A stretch of DNA of 64,000 bases from Arabidopsis thaliana. Its lineage: Eukaryota; Streptophyta; Magnoliopsida; Brassicales; Brassicaceae. The stretch lies in contig NC_003070.9 in NCBI RefSeq assembly GCF_000001735.4, positions 25,405,971-25,469,970 of the forward strand. Reading direction: 5' to 3'. The position numbers and the translations under genes are program-made. The notes beneath the pieces are model-generated. The model had not been told where the DNA came from. It worked only from the letters and a program-made list of their open reading frames with translations, and did not search any database. Below are positions 15,059 through 49,483 of the stretch, piece after piece (position 1 is the first letter of the stretch; every line of letters begins with the position of its first letter).

Positions 15059-17267
15059 TTAATAAAGCTTGATACGAACCGAGATTGAGCTCCGGCAAAT
15101 GGGACACACATGGAGGTCTTCCCCACATCCAGCGCAAGTCTGATGAGCAAAATAAGAAAAACAAAGGAAAGTTAACGATTTTGATTCAAGTGCGATGCTT
15201 AGGTAACTCGGGAGTGGAAATGCACCTGATGACCACAATTGAAAGCCATGTTCTTTGCACTCACTAGACATACGGGGCAAAACTGTTGCTGTTTATCCAA
15301 CAAAAAGATGTGACGAGCAGCAAAAGATTATCAATGCATTGTTGTTTCTTTCTTTGTAAATCATACCTGGCTCTCGTTATGAGTAGTTGAAGGTGGTGTA
15401 GAGGAAACACCATTATCATATGGTTTGTTTTGAAAACTGGTTGATCGGGAAGTTCTTGGGCTGTTGCGCATAGATTGAGTAGCATAAGTTGGTGGTGGAA
15501 GCGCAATCCTGTCTGGACAATGTCCGGTTCTTTGTCTGCAAATTCGAAACAAGGAACGAAATTGGCGGTTATTGAGATCAATTCATAAATGCTGCAGTGA
15601 TGAACTCAAATATCTGAATTTACTTACCCAAGTAAGCCTAGTTCGAGGGTGGCTTTATACTGAGACGGGATCTCCATCAAGGCAGAAAGCGCGAATTCTG
15701 CCTCTTTTCTTGCTGGATCAATGTTCTTTGACATTATATCCGTGAAATTCACAAACTGAAAGGATTCAAATAGACAACAAAAACCTTTGAAATTGATACA
15801 TTTGCCAGGAAAAAGACAAGGGATCTATCTACACTATTGTAGAAACATGTTGATATTATTACCTGGAAATTGTCAAAGGCACGAGCGGGGATGTTGTCAT
15901 CAAACTGTCTCATGGTGTCCCAGGGACCATCTCCAACACCAACAAGAACTATAGACAAAGGATATTCACTGCAACAGAATCCACCACAAGTTAGAGAGAC
16001 ACAGTTTGAAATTGGATTTTCGTCAAAGGAAATAGTATTTATTACCTTGCTCTAACAATGGCATCAATAGTCTGCTGCTCTTGTGGACTGAATCCACCGT
16101 TATCTGTATCAACACTTCTTGTCACCTGTCATAGTTAAAAGCTCCAATGGTAACTATACAGTACACAAATGTCTGGGAATGATTATAACTAAACACAAAT
16201 AGATACAAGAAATACTTTCTCTAGTCGAATTAGGTTCCAATCTTTACCTGTCCATCAGCGATAATGAGAAGAACATGGTACTGGCCACCACTTTCTTCCA
16301 CAATTGTCATGGCCCTTTCGATGATAGGTGCAAAAGATGTCGGACCTGTAAGAGAAGCAGCAAACTATAAGGAAAAAGTACAGCAAGATTCAGAAGACAT
16401 GCAGAAGAAAAGGGATTATTCATCTCACTCAACCTGAGAGACGAAGCTGGGGAACAATCTCTCTGTAACACATGAGAACTTCTTCAAACCCGTTACAATA
16501 TGTATCATTGGGATTGAAACTGAAGACATCCTGATCATGAGTTGTAGCTGCATAGTCAAAGAGAAACCAACCTTAAAATCTATTCTAGACAGGAACTTAA
16601 CAGCTACATAAAAACAATCAGGGTTTGTACCATCTCCAAATCCATAACAGGGGATCAAATTATCCTCATCAAAAACCGATAAAGTCTTTCCAATGATGGA
16701 AATAGCTTGTTGATAAGGGTTTGGAGTAGTTCCAATGAAATGCAGACTCTTCCTACCAAATGATCTCGCCCCTAAATCAAATCACCCAAGTCAGCTTCCA
16801 GGTCAAAGAAACATATACTAAAACATTGAGATAAATTCTCTAACCTGTCCACTCGTTGCTCTTGGTGACATCTATACCAACAATGAGATTCGAGGACTCC
16901 AAACCGGCATGTGAAAGAGCAGCGGTAACCTAAAAGAAAAGAAATATCAACAAAACACCAATAGAGAGATTCACAAACCGACACAACGACCTAAGAGACA
17001 AACAAACAAAAACAAGAGTGATCATCAAACCTCATCAATGGAACGGTAGTTATCAGCAATCCGTGAATACTTCCTCTCAAGATTCTTCGGTGTTTGTCTC
17101 CCAGAATTATAGGATGAAACAGGAGACGCAGATGGATGGTTTGGTGTCTGATAATAGCTGCTCTGGTCCCAAGCAGACGAATAAGATGAGCTCCCAGACA
17201 CACTACGTTCATACCTACGACCACTTCCACCTCCTCTAGGTGACTCTTTAGAGCTACTTCCTCCCAT
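15059..17267 (-). CDS. RGLG5: RGLG-type RING E3 ubiquitin ligase with copine/vWA domain
   Basis: Eleven exons join in phase to 433 residues: 17267-17031, 16929-16845, 16771-16631, 16547-16434, 16345-16248, 16125-16046, 15968-15863, 15755-15628, 15535-15367, 15288-15226 and 15139-15059. The start MGGSSSKE is an N-myristoylation signal, and is why I chose the ATG at 17267 over an upstream in-frame ATG. A Ser/Gly/Tyr-rich linker follows, then the copine/vWA domain ([41 protein letters not shown]), a Pro/Ser-rich spacer and a C-terminal RING finger from about residue 390 (FCPVC...[11 protein letters not shown]...CPIC). RGLG proteins are plasma-membrane or endomembrane E3s acting in hormone and drought signalling, partly by turning over PP2C phosphatases. 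A 5' UTR intron is predicted at 17310-17711. Confidence 0.93.
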
Positions 17268-37200: not shown

Positions 37201-37461
37201 TTAGATAATACAGTTGTTAAATTTTCTGTGCTTTAGATTGATGAAATTCTCTGCTTCTTTATCAACATCTTCATCTTTTGCTTTCTTCTCACTCTTCACC
37301 TTCCTCATATGATGTGATGACGTCTTCATCACGTCATGACTCAAGTCTTCGTACTCCATAACTTGATGATTAGGTTTCTCTGCCATCGAATTCATGTGAT
37401 GATGATGGGTATGGTGACGATGATGATGAGTTTTATGCTGAAGGAAGGTCTCAGGCACCAT
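37201..37461 (-). CDS. Small His-rich protein with DUF761-like C-terminus
   Basis: This is a single open frame of 86 residues. The N-terminus is histidine-rich (HKTHHHRHHTHHHH), the centre is mixed and charged, and the C-terminus reads EDVDKEAENFINLKHRKF. That end resembles the DUF761 motif of plant proteins (acidic, then V-D-x-x-A-E-x-F-I). DUF761 proteins are small, poorly understood and often stress-induced. The coherent motif at the very C-terminus supports a real gene. The His cluster could bind metal. No signal peptide was seen. It lies at the left edge of the repeated 37-45 kb cluster but is not obviously one of its paralogues. Confidence 0.65.
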   Translation of the reverse strand: MVPETFLQHKTHHHRHHTHHHHMNSMAEKPNHQVMEYEDLSHDVMKTSSHHMRKVKSEKKAKDEDVDKEAENFINLKHRKFNNCII

Positions 37462-38969
37462 TGTTTCTATTGAAATTCTTGTTTGATATCTTCTTATTAC
37501 TCAGTACGCATTTAAATTAATCATCAGAGGGATTATATCTACGCATGTTTAGTATTGGAGTCTTAAGGATTACGTTGAATCCGATACCTTTTATTCCTTT
37601 AGATTATTCCAGGTTTGGCCAATGTTCATTGGACCATTAAATATATTGACGCATATGTGACATGTCTATTGTTGTATTTAGAGGATAGTTGGCTAAAGGT
37701 ATATATGCCCATGAACAAACAGAAAACGGTAAACGAGAGTCACTGATGGTTATTCGATCGAACTAGATACCTTTAACAATGGATGATATGGCGTGTTTTG
37801 ACTACAACTTTAGTAAAGAAAGTAGGAAAATATGTGTGTATAAGTTCAATGTAAGGCTAATTATCTCCGTTGTGGAATGGTCTCTTCAATCGTTATGATA
37901 GAAATTGCATCTTGCTTGGAGAGATAACTTGTGGTTTTGCCTTGATGAGGATTCGTCATGTTGACCTAGGACCACTAAAAAATATCGAAGATATTCTCCT
38001 TCATATGATAAGAAGGATTCAAGAGATTATGATATATAGTAAAACTTTTATAAACTAATACTGGACAAATAAAAAAAAAATGTTATAAATTATTTATATT
38101 TTCTAGTTTCGAGTAGGAGTAATATAAAAACTAATACAATTCGATAAGATAGAAAAATAATTATTTTTTGAAAATTTTAATGTAAATCTAAGTTTCTAAT
38201 AATATAATAATAATTTTATAAACTGCACATATATAACAAAAATAAATACATGATTTTAGTGTTATTTGTATTTTTTTAAAAAAATTACTGATATTACATA
38301 CTTTTTGGTGTTATGTTTTCGAATTTTAACATATATTAATTTTATTGAGCAATGTGAGAGATAATATATTTAGTGTATATAAGAGGAAGACAACTAAATA
38401 ACCAGTTGTTGTGAAAACCTATATAGTTGTGATCCACATGAAAATTCCAATACAAGTCTACGCACAAACCCATCTTTTCTAGTTAACGTAATTAGTTTTC
38501 TTTGTTCCTTAACTCACTTGTACTTATGTTATTTTAACAAGTAGATTCATGTAATGAACATTAAAGCATGTAACTTGAGGGTTTTTTTCCCTTGTCTTCA
38601 TCGTGAAACAACATATCTTAATCCAATCATTTTCGTAAATAGTCTTTTCGTTTTCTCTTTCTATATATATAGTTCAATGAGATATAATATACTTCCTAAA
38701 TATTCATTTCAAATTTTGTCGATAAATATATATTAAAGTCAATTTATATACCGATCTAATATATATTTCTTATGTAATATGATAAATGATTTATTAACTT
38801 AAACAAGAACGCTGACAAAAAAAAAAAAAAACTTAAACAAGAACATTTATTTTCATTAAAAGTCCGTCACACAAATACATGATACATCTTACACATTTAT
38901 TATATGGGGAGTACATAATCGTTACTTTCTTATTTGAACCGTCAGAATATTTGGGTAGTCTAGAGTCCT
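37462..38969. other. Cluster spacer with duplicated block
   Basis: 37,500-37,960 resembles 42,500-42,960 in order and content (GGCCAA..GTTC, GAACTAGAT.CCTTTAA, GGCGTGTTTTGAC and TCTCTTCAATCGTTATGAT). The remainder to 38,830 is extremely AT-rich. 38,840-38,969 is the 3' flank repeated downstream of each small gene. Confidence 0.6.
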
Positions 38970-39206
38970 CTACTCCCTGTCTTTCTGGCGGCGACGGCGG
39001 CCGTTCTCCTTAGCCTTCACTGCTGCTGCACCGCCGTTACGGCTAAGGTTGGTCGGGAGCTTCTTTTTGTGCTCCTCGCAGTCGGTACGAGTGCAGCTCT
39101 GGTAACTATCGGGGCATATTCCGATCCCTCTGGCGAACCCATCCACCGTTCCAATAATCGCTCCGGCAATCCCTCCGACAATCCCTCCAATAAGCGTATC
39201 AAGCAT
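38970..39206 (-). CDS. Small Gly-rich protein of the MLD cluster, paralogue 1
   Basis: This is a 78-residue single-exon frame. It starts MLDTLIGGIVGGIAGAIIGT, a glycine-zipper-like hydrophobic segment of about 20 residues, then VDGFARGIGICPDSYQS, a Cys-containing middle and a very basic C-terminus (KENGRRRRQKDRE). It is clearly homologous to the gene at 40490 along its whole length, and its start and end resemble those of the gene at 43623-44973. The conservation of frame between copies despite many base differences supports coding. It could insert into or act at membranes. No known domain or function is recognised. The family appears to be restricted to this cluster, as far as this window shows. 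Confidence 0.75.
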   Translation of the reverse strand: MLDTLIGGIVGGIAGAIIGTVDGFARGIGICPDSYQSCTRTDCEEHKKKLPTNLSRNGGAAAVKAKENGRRRRQKDRE

Positions 39207-40489
39207 TTTTATATATTAATTCTGTTGTTTTTCTTTGATATGAATAAGAGCTTACAATCTTTCAGATGTTTGTATATATTTATACAATTCTCGTAGTGTT
39301 CACTTAAGTTTGTTTGTTATGGCAATTATTCGTCATATGATATCCATGATATGATAAGAATCTTATTCTTTTTTTTTTACCACCACCATACGTAAAATTG
39401 AATAGACATGTTTGTTCTTATTCCGTTCGTCTTAAAAAATTCAACGATCACAAAAATTCGTGAAGTAGATGGAAAGAAAGTGGAAAACAAGATAACTATG
39501 GACATACACGACCCGTCTTACTTGTCACTCAAATGGTCCTTCAATCGCTATGATGGAAATTGCATCTAATGCTTGCAAAGTTTGAAGACTCTCCAAGTGG
39601 AAGTGGACTTAAAGTTTCCCCTTGTTGAAGATTCAGGTCGTTGTTCTAGGCCAGAAAATAAAGCCTTATAAAAGTGTAATAATCTAACTATTCAACTTAG
39701 ACTCCATAACGCTGTAAATTGCAAGAAAACATTTCTATTAGTATTAAGTTCAAGAATTAGTCTAGACTTTGGATTTAGGAAGACTCTGATTATTGGAAAA
39801 AAAAAAAACATTGCTTGTGTAAGGTTCGTTTGATTTTTGAGATAAAAGTGTAGACAACTCTATCAATGACATTCATGGAATTCTTCAAGAAATTCGACAG
39901 CTTCAAGGTTGTTTCCGTTCTATCTCCTTTAGTTATATTTCTCGTCTTTCCAATTCAAAAGGCAGACGCTGTCGCCAAATATGCTATCTGTGTTTGTGTT
40001 TCCCTCAAGAACATTGCATAACTGAAAAGGCTAATCGAATCAACAAAAAATCCTATGATCCGTCTAATTTAGTAAATGAATTACTTGTTTGAATCAAATC
40101 TATGAGCTTAAAGTTTTGGTCGATAAATGCAAAATAAATTATCTAATTATTTAGATGAACCAGAAACATTAAAACGACATATCCTACTGCACTACGTAAC
40201 TTATAAATTCATTAGGGTTTTCGTTACACCATAACGTTACTTTTCAAACTTAATTGTGTGCAAATAAATTCAATCTTTTCACGTGTGGAAATAACTGTTA
40301 ATATACATCACTTTTATTAAACACACTCCTTTTATTAATCATAAAGTTCATAAAATTAAACAAGAAGACTTTTCATTAAAAGTCTCCTATATTTTTGGTA
40401 AGATACTGAAACATGTCCATCTTATACATACATCGTATACATTTATTATTTTGGATACATAATCATTACTGGGTGTGGTCAGGAGTCCT
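39207..40489. other. Cluster spacer with promoter-like and flank repeats
   Basis: This contains a promoter-like copy (39358-39432, TTCTTATTCCGTTCGTC), the TTCAATCGCTATGATGGAAA copy near 39540, and the 3' flank copy of the next gene (about 40,200-40,480). A frame near 39,873-40,020 shows no stable similarity. Confidence 0.6.
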
Positions 40490-40717
40490 TTACTCCCTGT
40501 CTTTCTGGCGGCGGCCGCCGGAGTTCTCGGATGCCTTCACTGCACCGCCATTACCATTGCCGTAGTTTCCCGGACTCGTCATATTGTTGTTCTCGAAGCG
40601 ACCGGTGCTCTGATAATTATTGGGCCATATCCCGACCCCTTTGGCAAACCCATCGACCGTTCCAAGAATCCCTCCGGTAATCCCTCCGGCAACCCCAATA
40701 ATAAGCTTATCAAGCAT
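40490..40717 (-). CDS. Small Gly-rich protein of the MLD cluster, paralogue 2
   Basis: This is a 75-residue frame homologous to the 38970 gene. The start MLDKLIIGVAGGITGGILGT has the same glycine-zipper segment, then VDGFAKGVGIWPNNYQS, an Asn/Gly-rich middle without the cysteines of paralogue 1, and the shared tail SENSGGRRQKDRE. Promoter-like sequence (40,844-40,910) and 3' flank are also shared with the neighbours. The function is unknown; small membrane-active or membrane-anchored proteins are plausible. The middle is the fast-changing part, while both ends are conserved. Confidence 0.75.
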   Translation of the reverse strand: MLDKLIIGVAGGITGGILGTVDGFAKGVGIWPNNYQSTGRFENNNMTSPGNYGNGNGGAVKASENSGGRRQKDRE

Positions 40718-43622
40718 TTTTCTTTATATTTATCTACTTGTGTTAGTTTTCTTTGATATGGATAAGTGTTTTAATCTTTCAGATGTTTTCTATATATAGA
40801 AAAAATTTCTTGTATATAGTTCCCTTTTTTATGATCTGAATCTTATTCTCTTAGTACCATCACTACCGAAAGTTGAATAGATATGTTTGTTCTAATTCCG
40901 TTCGTCGTTTTTAATAATGATCACATGGGAAAGATCCAAACTAAGGAGGTTTCTGTCTACGGACACGTTTTCTTTAAAAAATCAGACCCTATAGACCCTC
41001 AAAAATAGATGTTGTATGTGTATCAACTAATGTTTAGTCCAAAAAGGCATGTTTTGACAGCAATACTAGTAACGAACATTAGAAAAGATGTGTGGATAAG
41101 TTTAGTGTAAGGCCCATCTCCTTCGTGGAATGGTCTCTTCAATCGTTATGATGGAAATTGCATCTAATGCTTGCAAAGTTTGAAGAGTCTCTCTTAACCA
41201 AGTGATAGCGGATTCTCATTGTTGGTCTAGTCCATGAAAAGAATTTCCTTAAACGTGGAATTATCTAACTATCCCGCTTAGCCACTCGTCGACGCTTTCA
41301 GTGGCAATAAAACTCATATTAATACTTGGCTCAGGAATTAGTTTGGACTTCGGTCGACAAAGACCTAGTCCCGATTATTAAAAAAAAAACGTTAATGACA
41401 GTGTAAAGTTTATTTTAAAAAACAGATTTCTATGAGGTAAAAGAAGAAAATGTTATTCCCTTTGGAGATTATTCGAAATATCATCGTACGATCATATGAA
41501 TCTTATTCTCTTTTCTACCACGAAAGTTGAATAGTCATGTTTGTTCTAATTCCGTTCGTCTTTTAAATTAAAGATCAGTCCTATTCATATGGGAACATTT
41601 CGGAATTGGCTGAGTATTAATGGAAGCATAATAATGAAACTGGAAATTAAACCTAGTCTAGTTCTATTTATTACGGATTTTATTTGATTTTATATTAAAT
41701 TTGTTTGAGTTAAAATTTTCATTCATTTTTGGATTTCGACGAAGCGTTGTGTAACTTTTTTTTTTTTTTTTTTGTTCTTTGCTAATAGCCACGTAACGTG
41801 CATGACATGAGTAAGCCGGCCACGTTAGCGAAAAGTGGGAAGTAACACAAGAAGTCTAAAGACCATGGGATATTCAATGGTGAGGGTTAAAAAATACCGA
41901 GATTAAGTAGGAAGAAGATGAGGAAAGAAGACTTGTGTTAGAATATTGGAGACAAACCAATGATCCTTAGACGAAGCAAAGAAGAGAACCTCCAAGAGAA
42001 GTAACGGTGATTGTGGTGACCGTAGGGATTACTTTCAGCTTTGGTAACCATAAGTAAAATGATGATAAATTCAATTTGGATAGAAAAATACACCACTTAA
42101 GTAGCATCCCACATCAATCCACGAAACTGAAAAGATCAAAACATTTGCTATTAAAGGAACTATTCCAAAAATTTAGTGAAACGTGCCTAACATAACACAT
42201 ATACAACCGATAATCCGATATGTACTTTGAAAATCGGAGGAAGCCCACCAAATATACCAGAAAGTTGGCTAGATCTCATCAAGTAAATGCAAGATGGTTG
42301 TCACCATGATGATGGTGTTAGAAATCATAAAATATGTAAATATTTTTAACATGTTCATCCATCAGTTGAGCCACGGTCAATCTGGGTCGATCCTGACAGC
42401 CCTATAACTCGGAAGATAGCTTGGTTCGCTGTCCATGTCAGGTGTCAGGTTAATAATCATTGGATCAGGCTGAATTGGATATCTTTCTATTATTTCTTCT
42501 TTCTTATTCCAGGTTTGGGCCAAATGTTCTTGGAAGATTAAAACTAGAGACGCACGGTTCAATATATATTCAACAAGTAGAAGGAAAAATAACTTTGTAA
42601 AATATAAAGAGGTGGGCCAATGGGTTTAGAGGAGAGTTGCCAACGTATATATTCCCATATAAAGAAAGAGAGAACGGTAAACGATAACTACTATTGGTTA
42701 TTCAGTCGAACTAGATGCCTTTAATAATTGATCAAATTGGCGTGTTTTGACCGCAACATTATCAAAGAACATACGAAAATATGCGTGGATATGGTCAATG
42801 TTAGGTTCATCTCCGTTGTGCAATGGCCTCCCTCTTCAATCGTTACGATGGAAATTGCTTCTAATGCGCAAATTTTAGAGTCTCTCTTAACCAAGTGGCG
42901 GTTTTGTGTTGTTGAGGATTCATTTTATGGGTCTAAAAAAATAATAAAAATCGCCTCAAACGTGAACTTATCTAACTTTCTTGCTTAGCCATCCGTCATC
43001 TCGAAACTCATATTTTTATTGGACTCAGGAATAGACTTGGTCTAAAAAGACCAGATTATAAAATGTAATTAAAAATCATTATTGACAATGTAGAAGTTCA
43101 TTTTTTTAATCAACAGTTTTTTTTTTTTGATTAAACGATGTAAAGTTTTTTTTCTTCACAGTGTAAAACATTAGTTATTACAAACGGAATCCAAGAATGT
43201 GAAGTTTATTTTAAAACAGATGTTTTTTTTCTTTTTTTTTTGGAGGTGAAAGAAGTTATAAATTACTTATAAGTTATAAATTCACTACTGCACCACTTAC
43301 TTATAGGTTATAAATTCACTAGGGTTTTTATTACACCACAATGTTACTTTTAACTTAATTTTGTGCAATATAATCACCCCTTCCACGTGGGGAAATCAAC
43401 TGATAATATACATCACTTTTATTAAACATAAGCAGCAACAACAACACTCTTTAGAAATCATAAGGTCATCAAACGAAAGCACTTTTTTGGGATAAAAGCC
43501 ACCTATTTAGTTTTGGTACGATACAGAAACATGTCCATCACACACATACATCTTATAAATGTATTATTTGGGTACATAATCATTACTTTCTTATTTGAAC
43601 CGGCATAGTATTTAGGTGGAGT
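40718..43622. other. Cluster spacer with rearranged copies and an orphan promoter copy
   Basis: This holds the promoter-like copy of the 40490 gene (40844-40910), a TCTCTTCAATCGTTATGATG copy (about 41,134), an orphan promoter-like copy (41501-41563), a 20-odd base T tract (about 41,757), a USE-like element (42105-42155), a fourth TCTTCAATCGTTACGATGG copy (about 42,832) and the 3' flank of the next gene (43,260-43,620). No intact gene was seen. Confidence 0.55.
42105..42155 (+). promoter_or_regulatory. snRNA-promoter-like USE and TATA pair (weak)
   Basis: ATCCCACATCA at 42105-42115 differs by one base from the plant snRNA upstream sequence element RTCCCACATCG. TATTAAA starts 33 bp further on, the spacing of Pol II snRNA genes. 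No known snRNA follows, so this may be chance or a dead promoter. Confidence 0.25.
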
Positions 43623-44973
43623 CTAGAGTCCCTTACCTCCCCACCCGAGTTTCTGGCCGGTGATTTTGCTGACCCGCCAATTCTCAGTAGCGTTTACCAC
43701 TACTCCACCCGGGTGCTGCATCCCATGCATGCCCTGATGCTGTATTCTGTGCCCGCCCTGGTGCTGCATCCCATGCATGCCCTGATGCTGCATTTCGTGC
43801 CCGCCCTGGTGCTGCATTCCGTGCCTGCCCTGGTGCTGCATCCCATGCATGTCCTGGTGCTGCATTCCGTGCCCGCCCTGGTGCTCCATTCCGTGCCCCC
43901 CCTGGTGCTGCATCCCATGCATGCCCTGGTGCTGCATTCCGTGCCCGCCCTGGTGCTGCATTCCGTGCCCCCCCTGGTGCTGCATCCCGTGCATGCCCTG
44001 GTGCTGCATCCCGTGCCCGCCCTGGTGCTGCATCCCGTGTATGTCGTGGTGCTGGATCCCATGTCCGCCCTGGTGCTTCATCCCATGTATCTCGTGTCCC
44101 TGCTGCAATCCATTACCTATCTTTCCCATTTTTCCCTGAAAAATGATCATTAGGCAAATTAAAAAACAAAATATATGTTTAAGCAGATAGGATGACAGAA
44201 GGTTCTATATAAGATTAAAAAATTGGTGCTTCTTTTATAATAGTTTGTTAATATAAATAAAAACCACAAACCGTTGCCTAAAATTTATCTTCAAAACTCT
44301 TGTGGCGTGAAGGTCAAAGCTATGGACTTTTGATTTTATATAATACTATGTTTTTATACCGGATGAATTCAGGACTTGCCCTCTCTCTACGAAAGAGTGT
44401 TTGAACTTAGGGCACAAAATACCAACTCCATTTTATCACTAGACCACCACCTCAATCTGTTTATATAACTTTGTTTTTGATGTTTATATATACAAATCAG
44501 AATTAATTGTTTTATTTGGCAAAATTTTAGCACCAATTTTCAGGACTTCAAAATTTTAAAAGATACCTTACATATAAATAAATATATTAAGTAACATAAC
44601 ATAACATGATTAGTATAAGGTAACGACACCAAAAGAGATAACTTACGTTGTGGTGAGGCTGAGTCACTGGAGGTGGAGGCCTGAAGTTCATATGAAGTGG
44701 TTGCGGCAACGCAGTAGTGTGTTGGGTCCGGCTGCTCTCAAAGAACTCCTCCACGTCTGAGTCTGAGTCTTCTTCATCCCAGACATGCATGGGTGGACGG
44801 CCATGGTTGCCCGTACGGTGGTTGTAGCGGGCTTGACGGTCAACGAAGCCTCCTGATGACTCCACACGACTCGAAAACTCCTTGTGCTCCTCGAACCCGA
44901 AGCCTGCGCTTGCCTGGAAATGCCCATGTCCGCGCCGGAGACCTCCGATCCCTCTGGTAAGCTTATCAAGCAT
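43623..44973 (-). CDS. Gly/His/Met/Gln-rich repeat protein of the MLD cluster
   Basis: Two exons (44973-44647 and 44135-43623) join at a GTAAGT donor and TTTTCAG acceptor to 279 residues. Exon 1 begins MLDKLTRGIGGLRRGHGHFQ like the two small paralogues, then has an acidic patch (DEEDSDSDVEEFFESS) and a Pro-rich end. Exon 2 encodes sixteen 8-residue units of consensus HGMQHQGG or HGMQHQGM, then VVVNATENWRVSKITGQKLG, which aligns with the paralogues' VKASEN..RRQKD tail. The protein is therefore a small-family member expanded by a repeat exon. The dense His and Met suggest possible copper or other metal binding. There is no signal peptide or known domain. Expression and function are unknown to me. 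Confidence 0.8.
43704..44087 (-). repeat. 24-bp coding minisatellite, 16 units
   Basis: Sixteen 24-bp units alternate between forms ending GG and GM, giving a 48-bp higher-order period. The GC content is far above the flanks. As 24 is a multiple of three, several frames on both strands are open, which produces spurious ORFs here. Confidence 0.92.
44360..44460 (-). mobile_element. tRNA-derived SINE-like sequence in an intron
   Basis: On the minus strand the sequence contains GGTGGTCTAGTGATAAAATG, similar to a Pol III A box, and AAGTTCAAACACTC about 45 bp later, similar to a B box. This is the layout of tRNA-derived SINEs. It sits wholly within the intron (44136-44646) of the repeat-protein gene. 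Ends and target duplications were not resolved. Confidence 0.4.
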
Positions 44974-46750
44974 TTTTCTGTAAATTTATACTTGTGTTAG
45001 TTTCTTTGATAGGGATAAGTAATTAAAATCTTTCAGGTGTTTATATATATACAATTTTGTACTGTAGTAGTAGAGTGTTCTTTTAAATTTGTGTTAGATA
45101 TGATCCCATATGGCAATAATTCGTAATATGCTTTGAATCTTATTCTCTTTTCTACCACCACCATACCGAAAGTTGAGTAGACATATTTATTCTGATTCCG
45201 TTCTTCCTAATTAATGATTAGTCCAATTCACGTGGAAAATCCGAGTATTTATGGAGGCATATTATATAATCTAGTTTAGTTCCACTACGGTTTTGATTTT
45301 GGTTATACTGTGTTTTGATATCAAATTTGTTTGGGTTAATATTGTTATTCATCATTGAGTGTATCACTTAATTTTTTTATGTAAACCATGTAGCGTAAAA
45401 AACTTGTTTTGATAGTTTTTGACCTTTGGTCTAGTTCTAAAGGTGTTTAGGCATAATCCTATTTGTTCTACTTGTGCTCCACGAACTCTAGGTAAAGTCA
45501 CATGCTACGTGGTAAGAAGAATACTTTCTTTTGAATGGTCGGATGGACTCAAGACGTCAAAATTCACCCGCACTGACGATCGATTGCCTAGTCCCTTCAT
45601 CAAGTCCATTCATCATATGAGTCGAGACATGGATACTTATAAGCTGAAATGCCTCGGAGCTATGCAACATGACTCTTCACCTATATAAAGGCATGCAAAG
45701 TATTCCCCAAAAAAACTTAACCTTCTCAGTTTCATGAGAATATCCATTCTATTCGACTCTTTAATGAAACTGTCTTCTCTTAGCTTACTGAACAATGGAA
45801 AAATCCTCATATCTTTCTCTTTTTTCACTGGCTAAAATGTTAGATGATATACCCGATTGCCGAATACATTGCACATCTCTCTTCTTAGAACTGACATAAC
45901 TTGTTTCTAGTTTTTCTGGTTTCTGACCGACTCTTGTGGTTTAAATACTGACTTGACTATTAAAGAGTCCTACAAAATTATAAAAAATTACATTGGTGTT
46001 GAATTCCTAGGTTTGCACTTGTTTGTTTATTACTCAGCGGAAACTTAATTCCCTCCCATAGACGAACTTACATATCAATTTTGCCCCAACAATTTAACAT
46101 TAGAAAGAGGAGGGAGGTGGGAGGATGGGGTGAAATCCACATTTTACCAATTTAAGGGATTATTATTTGGGTTAATTATATGCAGGATCCTGCCGTATAA
46201 GTTATATGGTCATTGAGTTCATTATTGTTTTTTTTTGGGTCATTTTTCTCAAATTTCCTAAGAACATAAAGCTTAAAGTTAGCATAGCATATGTTTATTA
46301 CTAATACGTGAATAATCTTATTAGTCAACTTCTGATGTGTTTATTACTAATACGTGAATAATCTTATTCACATTAGAACTGCAATGCAATTCATCTAGTC
46401 TTGATGACATCACTGGAACGTTGTTTTCTCCATTCTTGCTTATGTCCTTCAAGTCTTAGCTTCATCAATTTCGAGTTGAGATCCTTACTCATTGTATCTT
46501 CGATTCAATCCTTATGATCTTGTGTACTAGATTTGTCCCCATGACTTCTTGCTTGATGTTCATATATCAGTCTTAGACATATGTTTTTGAACATGTAATC
46601 ACTTGAATGAGTCCTTTAAGACTAGACTAAAACACTAAGACCACTTTTCTATCGGAGATTTTTAATTTGAGGCATTGAAATTAGAACTGAACAACTTACT
46701 TTGTTAATCTTTGCTCTGAACTTAGTAAATGTCACAAAATTTGTTTTTTT
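44974..46750. other. Intergenic right of the MLD cluster
   Basis: A promoter-like copy shared with the paralogues lies at 45147-45210. A 46-bp-period duplication lies at 46292-46368. An 89-codon plus-strand frame at 45,419 has no recognisable content and begins at a non-ATG codon. Confidence 0.55.
46292..46368 (+). repeat. Short tandem duplication
   Basis: TGTTTATTACTAATACGTGA and the following 11 bases occur at 46292-46322 and again at 46338-46368, with a period of 46 bp. Confidence 0.85.
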
Positions 46751-48110: not shown

Positions 48111-49483
48111 TCATTCCTCATCTCTCAAACAGTTCCCCGGAAGAAGAAACTTGTACCTCTCCGCGTTCTCTAAAAGGTACGCCGGAAGATGAACCGCGGA
48201 GTAAGAATGCGGGATCGGTCCCATTTTACCAATGATGTCTTTAAACGTGTATTCCTCGGGAATCATATCGAACAAATCCGATCCGCTGCATATAACTCTT
48301 TGAACCCTTTTCGGGTTCAAGTAATGCGCGAATCTCACTCGATCATAATGACTATAAGCTTTCATCTTAAACACAAACTCGCTTATACGTCTAAAACAGA
48401 AACTGCAATGCCACCCTGAATCCGCCAAGATAACATCAGACTGTCGATAATGCGCATACCTTGTTTTACCCGTCTGGTATCTATGCACCGATGCTCTCCA
48501 GCTCTTATCATCAACAGGGAACTCAAAAGAGTACAAGTAATTCTTCAGTCTAAGATGAAGAATTTGTGGTATGTCATCGCACCAACGGAGAAGATTTATC
48601 GTATGTCTACTCGGAATCTCATCAACATCAGACATAATCAACAAGTCATCATCAGTGATACCAGCTATTCTCAATAGCTGATCCAATGCGATTCTTTGAT
48701 AAGCCTCTTCGTAAAAAGGATTCTTCTCACCTTTCTTAAACCTTCCTCCTATCGACCCGTAAGTCAACCGTGGCTCGATAAACTTAAACTCATCCCTATG
48801 CCCCGCGAAAACAAGCGGTTTTGGTAATCCGGTGAAAGTCGAGTTAGATTCAAGTAGAACAAACTGAGTAACATATGGGTACAGTTCTTTCCACCGTATC
48901 GTGAGGAGTTCAACTTCAGTACTGAACAAAACAGCGTCGTAGACACGACGAGGGTACTCACGGGTTCTCCAACCGTGGAGTTTACAGAGAGATTCCATAG
49001 AAGCGTTCTCGTGGTGATAATGCGGTATCTCATGGAATGGTTTTGGTGGTGATTCCCATAAAGGTCTCAAGAAATATGAAATCTTGAGAGCGTTAATGTA
49101 TACACCAAGAACACACATTGGCATGATTACTAACAGAAACAGAACCGATTTTAAATCCACACCACGCAAGATACAACAGAGTCTTGAAATACCAAAGCCT
49201 CGATCTGATTCCTGATTCCAAACCAAAGAGAAAAATTGTCGATTCGCTGACTAAAACCAAACAAGAGATGTTGACCAATCTAAGCAAGTGCAGAGAGATC
49301 AATCTAATTCAAGAGAATAAGATTCCGCAAGATCTATGATATAGATCCAAAAGGGTTCTTTGAGCATTGACTAAAGATCTTGTTTTTATCAAGAAGAAGA
49401 AAATCACAAACCTGAGTTCCGCATAAATCATCGGACTTTTTAGAACAGTAGTGACCACCGTTTTCTCCCATCATCCACCACAT
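48111..49483 (-). CDS. GT17 family beta-1,4-N-acetylglucosaminyltransferase-like protein
   Basis: Two exons, 49483-49412 ([20 protein letters not shown]...) and 49211-48111, give 390 residues. The acceptor at 49211 was preferred over an earlier AG at 49251 because it gives the family's usual spacing to [14 protein letters not shown] transmembrane anchor at about residues 45-65 makes it a type II Golgi-like protein. The catalytic region has the cluster [57 protein letters not shown], the acidic DVDEIPS (residues 219-221) that is a likely metal/nucleotide-sugar site, [20 protein letters not shown], and YLLPGNC-like [12 protein letters not shown] at the end. Animal GT17 (MGAT3) adds bisecting GlcNAc; plant N-glycans lack this, so the plant substrate is uncertain. 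Confidence 0.92.

Follow-up and report, generated by a model that had tools for sequence, protein, structure and literature searches.

Investigation of a 64,000-nucleotide stretch of Arabidopsis thaliana chromosome 1 (NC_003070.9, positions 25,405,971 to 25,469,970 of the forward strand; hereafter the window, with positions counted from its first letter) revealed a tandem cluster of four minus-strand cassettes between 37201 and 45360, arranged head to tail in the order MLD promoter, 5' untranslated region (5'UTR) and start, 3' flank and TTCAATCG block. Three of the cassettes carry genes that are annotated and expressed (AT1G67870, AT1G67865 and AT1G67860, here called the MLD genes), and no second locus of these was found in this genome. 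Part of the block is homologous to the region upstream of AT1G24575, the ohnologue of a gene that adjoins the cluster. We propose that cassettes including this neighbour's upstream region were copied in tandem, that the copied region has a promoter role in phloem companion cells and that the cluster encodes small glycine-zipper proteins; to the account in its entirety we give an even chance of being right.

By gene order we take the two-exon gene at 44973-43623 to be AT1G67870 and the gene at 39206-38970 to be AT1G67860. The minus-strand gene at 40717-40490 is AT1G67865, because both published primers match exactly, once each in the window. The published forward primer starts at 43205, so that the printed 2488-bp upstream fragment corresponds to 43205-40718; results with this reporter fragment call for caution, as it includes, besides two block copies, the cassette B promoter and the cassette C promoter.

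Self-comparison of 37201-45360 gave 17 forward repeat pairs at E<=1e-5 (pairs internal to the 24-bp array of AT1G67870 omitted), against none in each of 10 dinucleotide shuffles of the region; five further stretches of the window, each of 8.16 kb, gave 4, 0, 3, 2 and 0 pairs. The diagonals lie at offsets of 1520, 1597, 1656, 1693, 3107, 3256, 4948 and others; the block recurs, as an earlier note on this DNA had said, at four sites about 1.6-1.7 kb apart (37863, 39518, 41116 and 42813; spacings 1655, 1598 and 1697), and the positions that it gave for the 3' flank copies are approximately right. All three genes have promoter, 5'UTR, first codons and 3' flank in common, while the shared coding tail, which had also been claimed, is clear only for the genes at 38970 and 40490. 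The copies are thus alike in coding and flanking DNA, as in a tandem duplicate cluster, with four cassettes of which three have genes, and the suggested history of repeated tandem duplication with later losses is supported by the geneless cassette and by the unalignable filler and dispersed repeat between copies.

In cassette B the 5'UTR, gene and 3' flank are all missing between promoter and block, and in cassette D about 0.9 kb of A+T-rich filler, dispersed repeat included, separates the 3' flank from the block. The regular 1.6-1.7 kb spacing of the block is partly coincidence, because the three intervals contain different lost and added pieces. For the approximately 0.7 kb between cassettes A and B (42.46-41.73 kb) no match was found at E<=0.001, and AT1G24575-like coding remnants in this filler (41.75-42.46 kb) were ruled out at the same threshold.

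Regarding the block, a model built from copies A, D and B and run unfiltered over 30 kb at the ohnologous place stood out at one site only, which lies upstream of AT1G24575 at a distance of 367-522 bp from its start (23.1 bits, runner-up 8.1 bits; E=1e-6 for the match), and elsewhere in the window, with the four block copies excluded, its top score was 10.4 bits. In pairwise comparison copies A and D outscored all 300 shuffles of the AT1G24575 upstream region, a similarity above chance. The distal half of the block is, to judge from the sequence, the neighbour's promoter sequence and older than the genome duplication, because both the model and the pairwise comparisons match it to the AT1G24575 upstream region. 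The block can therefore not be a mark of the MLD unit alone, as had been supposed, and its interpretation as a decayed MLD gene was rejected on the same ground. The other part of the block holds a 28-nt core in which 25 of 28 columns are invariant when copies A, B and C are compared, the overall figure being 36% (a contrast equalled in 0 of 2000 column shuffles). This core occurs four times in the genome (119.7 Mb, <=3 mismatches), all within the cluster, with no occurrence of a reversed-pattern control.

The two places are ohnologous, because the RING pair, the AT1G24575-like pair and the DNA at 34.1-35.9 kb correspond in order. The RING gene beyond the AT1G24575-like open reading frame (ORF) has its best partner, 71% identical, beside the AT1G24575 locus, with a synonymous divergence (dS) of 1.29 and a ratio of nonsynonymous to synonymous divergence (dN/dS) of 0.17, and the DNA at 34.1-35.9 kb aligns with the AT1G24575 place in the same order. 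The start of the gene at C1:8711232-8711459 matches the AT1G24575 cloning primer printed in PMC12575000. For the AT1G24575-like pair the dN is 0.27 and synonymous sites are saturated (proportion of synonymous differences, pS, 0.82, 36 sites), and the 86-codon ORF 37461-37201 is therefore very probably a gene under constraint. Its DUF761 score and that of AT1G24575 (13.9 and 12.9 bits, respectively) lie below the curated cut-off of 22 bits. The MLD stretch gave no blastn match to the ohnologous 30 kb at E<=0.01, and short tblastx segments of about 21-26 bits were taken for noise.

Kimura two-parameter distances (K2P) between cassettes range from 0.18 to 0.35 in the promoter, the 5'UTR with the start, the 3' flank and the distal block, and from 0.38 to 0.69 in the upstream block part; the coding sequences of AT1G67860 and AT1G67865 differ by 0.305. 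Set against the RING dS of 1.29, these distances would make the cassette duplications about 20-25% as old as the genome duplication, and the cassette duplications would be expected to predate the split of A. thaliana and A. lyrata. The description of the cluster as young, made in the earlier note, is relative and weakly supported, by flanks set against the RING pair.

AT1G67860 and AT1G67865 are paralogues (59% identical), both with a C-terminal RRQKDRE and, close to the N-terminus, a glycine-zipper stretch that is hydrophobic (19-residue hydropathy means 1.75 and 1.48). The structure predicted for AT1G67865 by a two-sequence AlphaFold model has one helix, residues 2-27, and both proteins probably place an N-terminal glycine-zipper helix into the membrane, with a disordered basic tail outside. 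AT1G67860 matches the Pfam families Romo1 and glycine zipper 2TM below their curated cut-offs (18 bits against 27.6 and 13.7 bits against 24.2), and a phmmer search at E<=1 returned no solved structure resembling AT1G67865.

AT1G67870 has the first 12 codons in common with the other two genes (first 36 nt, 0 of 300 shuffles), and its coding tail is weakly similar: in the comparison with AT1G67860 2 of 300 shuffles attained the score, and in that with AT1G67865 9 of 300. Past codon 12, exon 1 showed no similarity, since 191 and 28 of the 300 shuffles did as well in the two comparisons, so that the single MLD protein family previously envisaged, with homologous bodies in all three, holds for AT1G67860 and AT1G67865 and fails for AT1G67870 beyond the shared start. 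The array in exon 2 encodes 16 consecutive HGMQHQGG-type octapeptides within a His/Met/Gly-rich body. No hydrophobic stretch and no Pfam family match were detected in AT1G67870, which is probably a soluble His/Met-rich repeat protein and perhaps metal-binding. Searching the genome with the AT1G67865 protein at E<=10 returned only itself and AT1G67860, and a second MLD locus was accordingly rejected; with AT1G67870, whose exon 1 was the part searched by itself as protein, the sole hit other than the query had E=3.8. The cluster genes are thus orphans in the sense of having no homologue elsewhere in this genome.

Regarding expression, the passages of PMC12575000 at hand report AT1G67865 and AT1G24575 as enriched in a cluster of high-FT nuclei (cluster 7), with eight cluster-7 reporters, these two included, overlapping FT in leaf veins, incompletely; they further report NIGT1 motif enrichment in the promoters of the high-FT cluster and a slightly lower leaf number upon SUC2-driven expression of AT1G24575. 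AT1G67870 transcripts are placed in stem phloem by a figure legend (PMC12416547), AT1G67860 is called 'Arabidopsis specific', leaf-enriched and co-expressed with defence and stress genes in an extract of PMC7039010, and an AT1G24575 reporter was used in stem, according to an extract of PMC8136906. The loci are also named in excerpted lists and tables (an accession list, salt response, geomagnetic field, virus response, pea ABR17 plants and stem stages), including an entry with AT1G67870 as a yeast two-hybrid hit with PHS1. Since the loci have Arabidopsis Genome Initiative (AGI) numbers and expression papers they are not undescribed, as the earlier note had thought, but the passages and sections of papers bearing these numbers hold no functional description of AT1G67860, AT1G67865 or AT1G67870. 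A literature search on glycine zippers and phloem gave, at the level of its listing, no paper naming these genes besides PMC12575000.

These results are best accommodated by an ancestral cassette in which a gene for a small protein, complete with promoter and 3' flank, would have been joined to the upstream region of the neighbouring AT1G24575-like gene. Tandem copying would have raised the number of cassettes to four, well after the AT1G24575 locus had arisen by whole-genome duplication. Cassette B would then have lost its gene, and in the AT1G67870 unit the coding body may have been replaced or strongly remodelled, with the shell of promoter, 5'UTR, 12 codons and 3' flank staying in place. 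Copies of the neighbour's upstream region now lie immediately before the promoters of AT1G67865 and AT1G67860, and the copied region and the shared MLD promoter would, as the most likely working, turn the small genes on in phloem companion cells. That the block causes companion-cell expression we infer from co-expression, which is what the printed passages provide (PMC12575000).

Several observations weigh against this account. Blocks B and C, which lie just upstream of AT1G67865 and AT1G67860, retain at most a small part of the half that is homologous to the AT1G24575 upstream region, and for this reason their comparison with its upstream region was reached by 224 of 300 shuffles for B and 3 of 300 for C. 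No link between the block and the AT1G24575 promoter emerged when the genome was searched with plain DNA comparisons, the 28-nt core lies outside the AT1G24575 match, and SUC2-driven AT1G67865 did not noticeably alter flowering (PMC12575000, in the passages available). No block was seen upstream of AT1G67870, though this gene is phloem-expressed, and the MLD promoter may therefore suffice. The possibility that the MLD promoter alone drives phloem expression, with the block a passenger of the duplications whose copies are alike by common descent or gene conversion, is one we take seriously while placing it clearly below even; conservation of the MLD promoter stretches equals that of the block (identity 0.72-0.82), but the core of the block is far more conserved than its surroundings and the half shared with AT1G24575 has persisted since the genome duplication.

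On the protein side, the AT1G67865 model has a mean predicted local distance difference test score (pLDDT) of 54 and was made from two sequences, and AT1G67865 is without a Pfam match. Comparison of AT1G67860 with AT1G67865 gives a dN/dS of 0.8 for the whole and of about 1 for the N-terminal 32 codons, so that protein constraint of the pair is not demonstrated. These ratios, and a coding K2P that is not below that of the flanks, would suit two genes that are transcribed but yield no functional protein, with selection on the regulatory shell only. We consider this improbable, as both frames are intact, gaps in the protein alignment amount to just two and one residues, and the glycine spacing and the ends are kept, a comparison to which 75 codons lend little power. 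Nearer to even, though still short of it, is the chance that all three genes form one ordinary family in which AT1G67870 is a fast-changing member that had its helix deleted and gained repeats: the strongly alike first 36 nt and the weakly alike coding tail agree with this, and RGIG and EEHK stretches can be aligned by eye, but exon 1 past codon 12 shows no similarity, and neither intron nor repeat array was seen in AT1G67860 or AT1G67865.

The proposed copying of cassettes with a neighbour's promoter region could be extended to a gene-birth nursery, in which a companion-cell module predating the genome duplication came to stand beside a new small ORF and, with the shell (here promoter, start codons, 3' flank and block) multiplied and the bodies exchanged, gave rise to unrelated new phloem proteins, namely glycine-zipper peptides and a His/Met octapeptide-repeat protein, including in florigen-producing cells; we hold this extension to be unlikely. 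The cluster is a new instance of lineage-restricted tandem duplicates, real but fairly ordinary, with a promoter history that is unusually readable. QQS is an example of lineage-restricted small Arabidopsis genes. Like genes of this type, the cluster genes are small and without a recognised domain, and AT1G67860 is the one termed specific to Arabidopsis (PMC7039010, in extract), but the cluster consists of tandem cassettes with a copied neighbour promoter, and the one phenotype in the passages available is unchanged flowering (AT1G67865). The AT1G24575 gene and promoter (C1:8711232-8712000) share with the cluster the distal half of the block and, in the published excerpts, the same FT-rich companion cells as AT1G67865; unlike the cluster, that locus is single copy, and no MLD gene and no 28-nt core were found there. 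With glycine-zipper membrane proteins (Pfam Romo1, Rick_17kDa_Anti), AT1G67860 and AT1G67865 share a GxxxG-type hydrophobic N-terminal stretch, but as AT1G67860 stays below the Pfam cut-offs and AT1G67865 is unmatched, this is a convergent feature at most.

The cluster suggests a simple test of how new genes gain vein-specific expression. If the block has companion-cell activity, its four natural copies and their distant relative would offer a compact region, 28-nt core included, for dissecting what distinguishes FT-producing companion cells, as well as a concrete case of new small genes taking a neighbour's expression via duplication.

Table 1. Features of the cassette cluster and its adjoining gene (positions in the window).
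Feature	Position	Strand	Evidence or remark
Cassette A: promoter 45352-45121, 5'UTR/start, AT1G67870, 3' flank 43622-43308	43308..45352	-	self-BLAST, repeat families, pairwise distances
AT1G67870, 279 aa: exon 1 44973-44647, intron 44646-44136, exon 2 44135-43623	43623..44973	-	exon limits are a reading of GT..AG sites
24-bp tandem array in AT1G67870 exon 2, 15.7 copies, also 72-bp higher-order unit	43708..44084	-	
Block of cassette A, longest copy; distal half homologous to AT1G24575 upstream region	42462..43104	-	
Promoter of cassette B, no gene after it	41484..41726	-	68% match to 45121-45352
Block of cassette B	41028..41416	-	67 bases from cassette B promoter
Promoter of cassette C	40830..40925	-	
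AT1G67865, 75 aa, N-terminal glycine-zipper helix (predicted)	40490..40717	-	exact primer matches, sequence, model
3' flank of cassette C	40201..40489	-	
Block of cassette C	39470..39806	-	32.2 bits with model built without this copy
Promoter of cassette D	39350..39450	-	
AT1G67860, 78 aa, AT1G67865 paralogue (59%)	38970..39206	-	
Short 3' flank of cassette D	38860..38969	-	
A+T-rich dispersed repeat copy inside cassette D filler	38026..38287	.	27/35 genome matches of 37500-41800
Block of cassette D, directly upstream of AT1G24575-like ORF	37567..37918	-	
AT1G24575-like gene, 86 aa, ohnologue of C1:8711232-8711459	37201..37461	-	44% identity, E=3.6e-6

Within the cluster, the promoters of all four cassettes retain a 23-bp word of the GAATCTTATTC type (39350, 40830, 41490 and 45127). 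A GATTC-type word, as in the NIGT1 motif, lies inside the conserved part of the MLD promoter, but words of this kind are common. The dispersed repeat at 38026-38287 has 27 genome matches at about 70-82% identity, members sharing up to about 500 bp with one another. Upstream of AT1G24575 lies a 75-aa ORF (L046 6758-6985, minus strand) with no Pfam match, which is probably AT1G24577. The DNA at 16271-16781 is about 71% identical to C1:8701574-8702124, near the ohnologous block and outside the gene order described above, and forms a further duplicate pair. Beyond the upstream end of the cluster, the first long ORF with the same orientation is a glycosyltransferase family 17 gene at 48111-49124 (Pfam E=1.2e-182).

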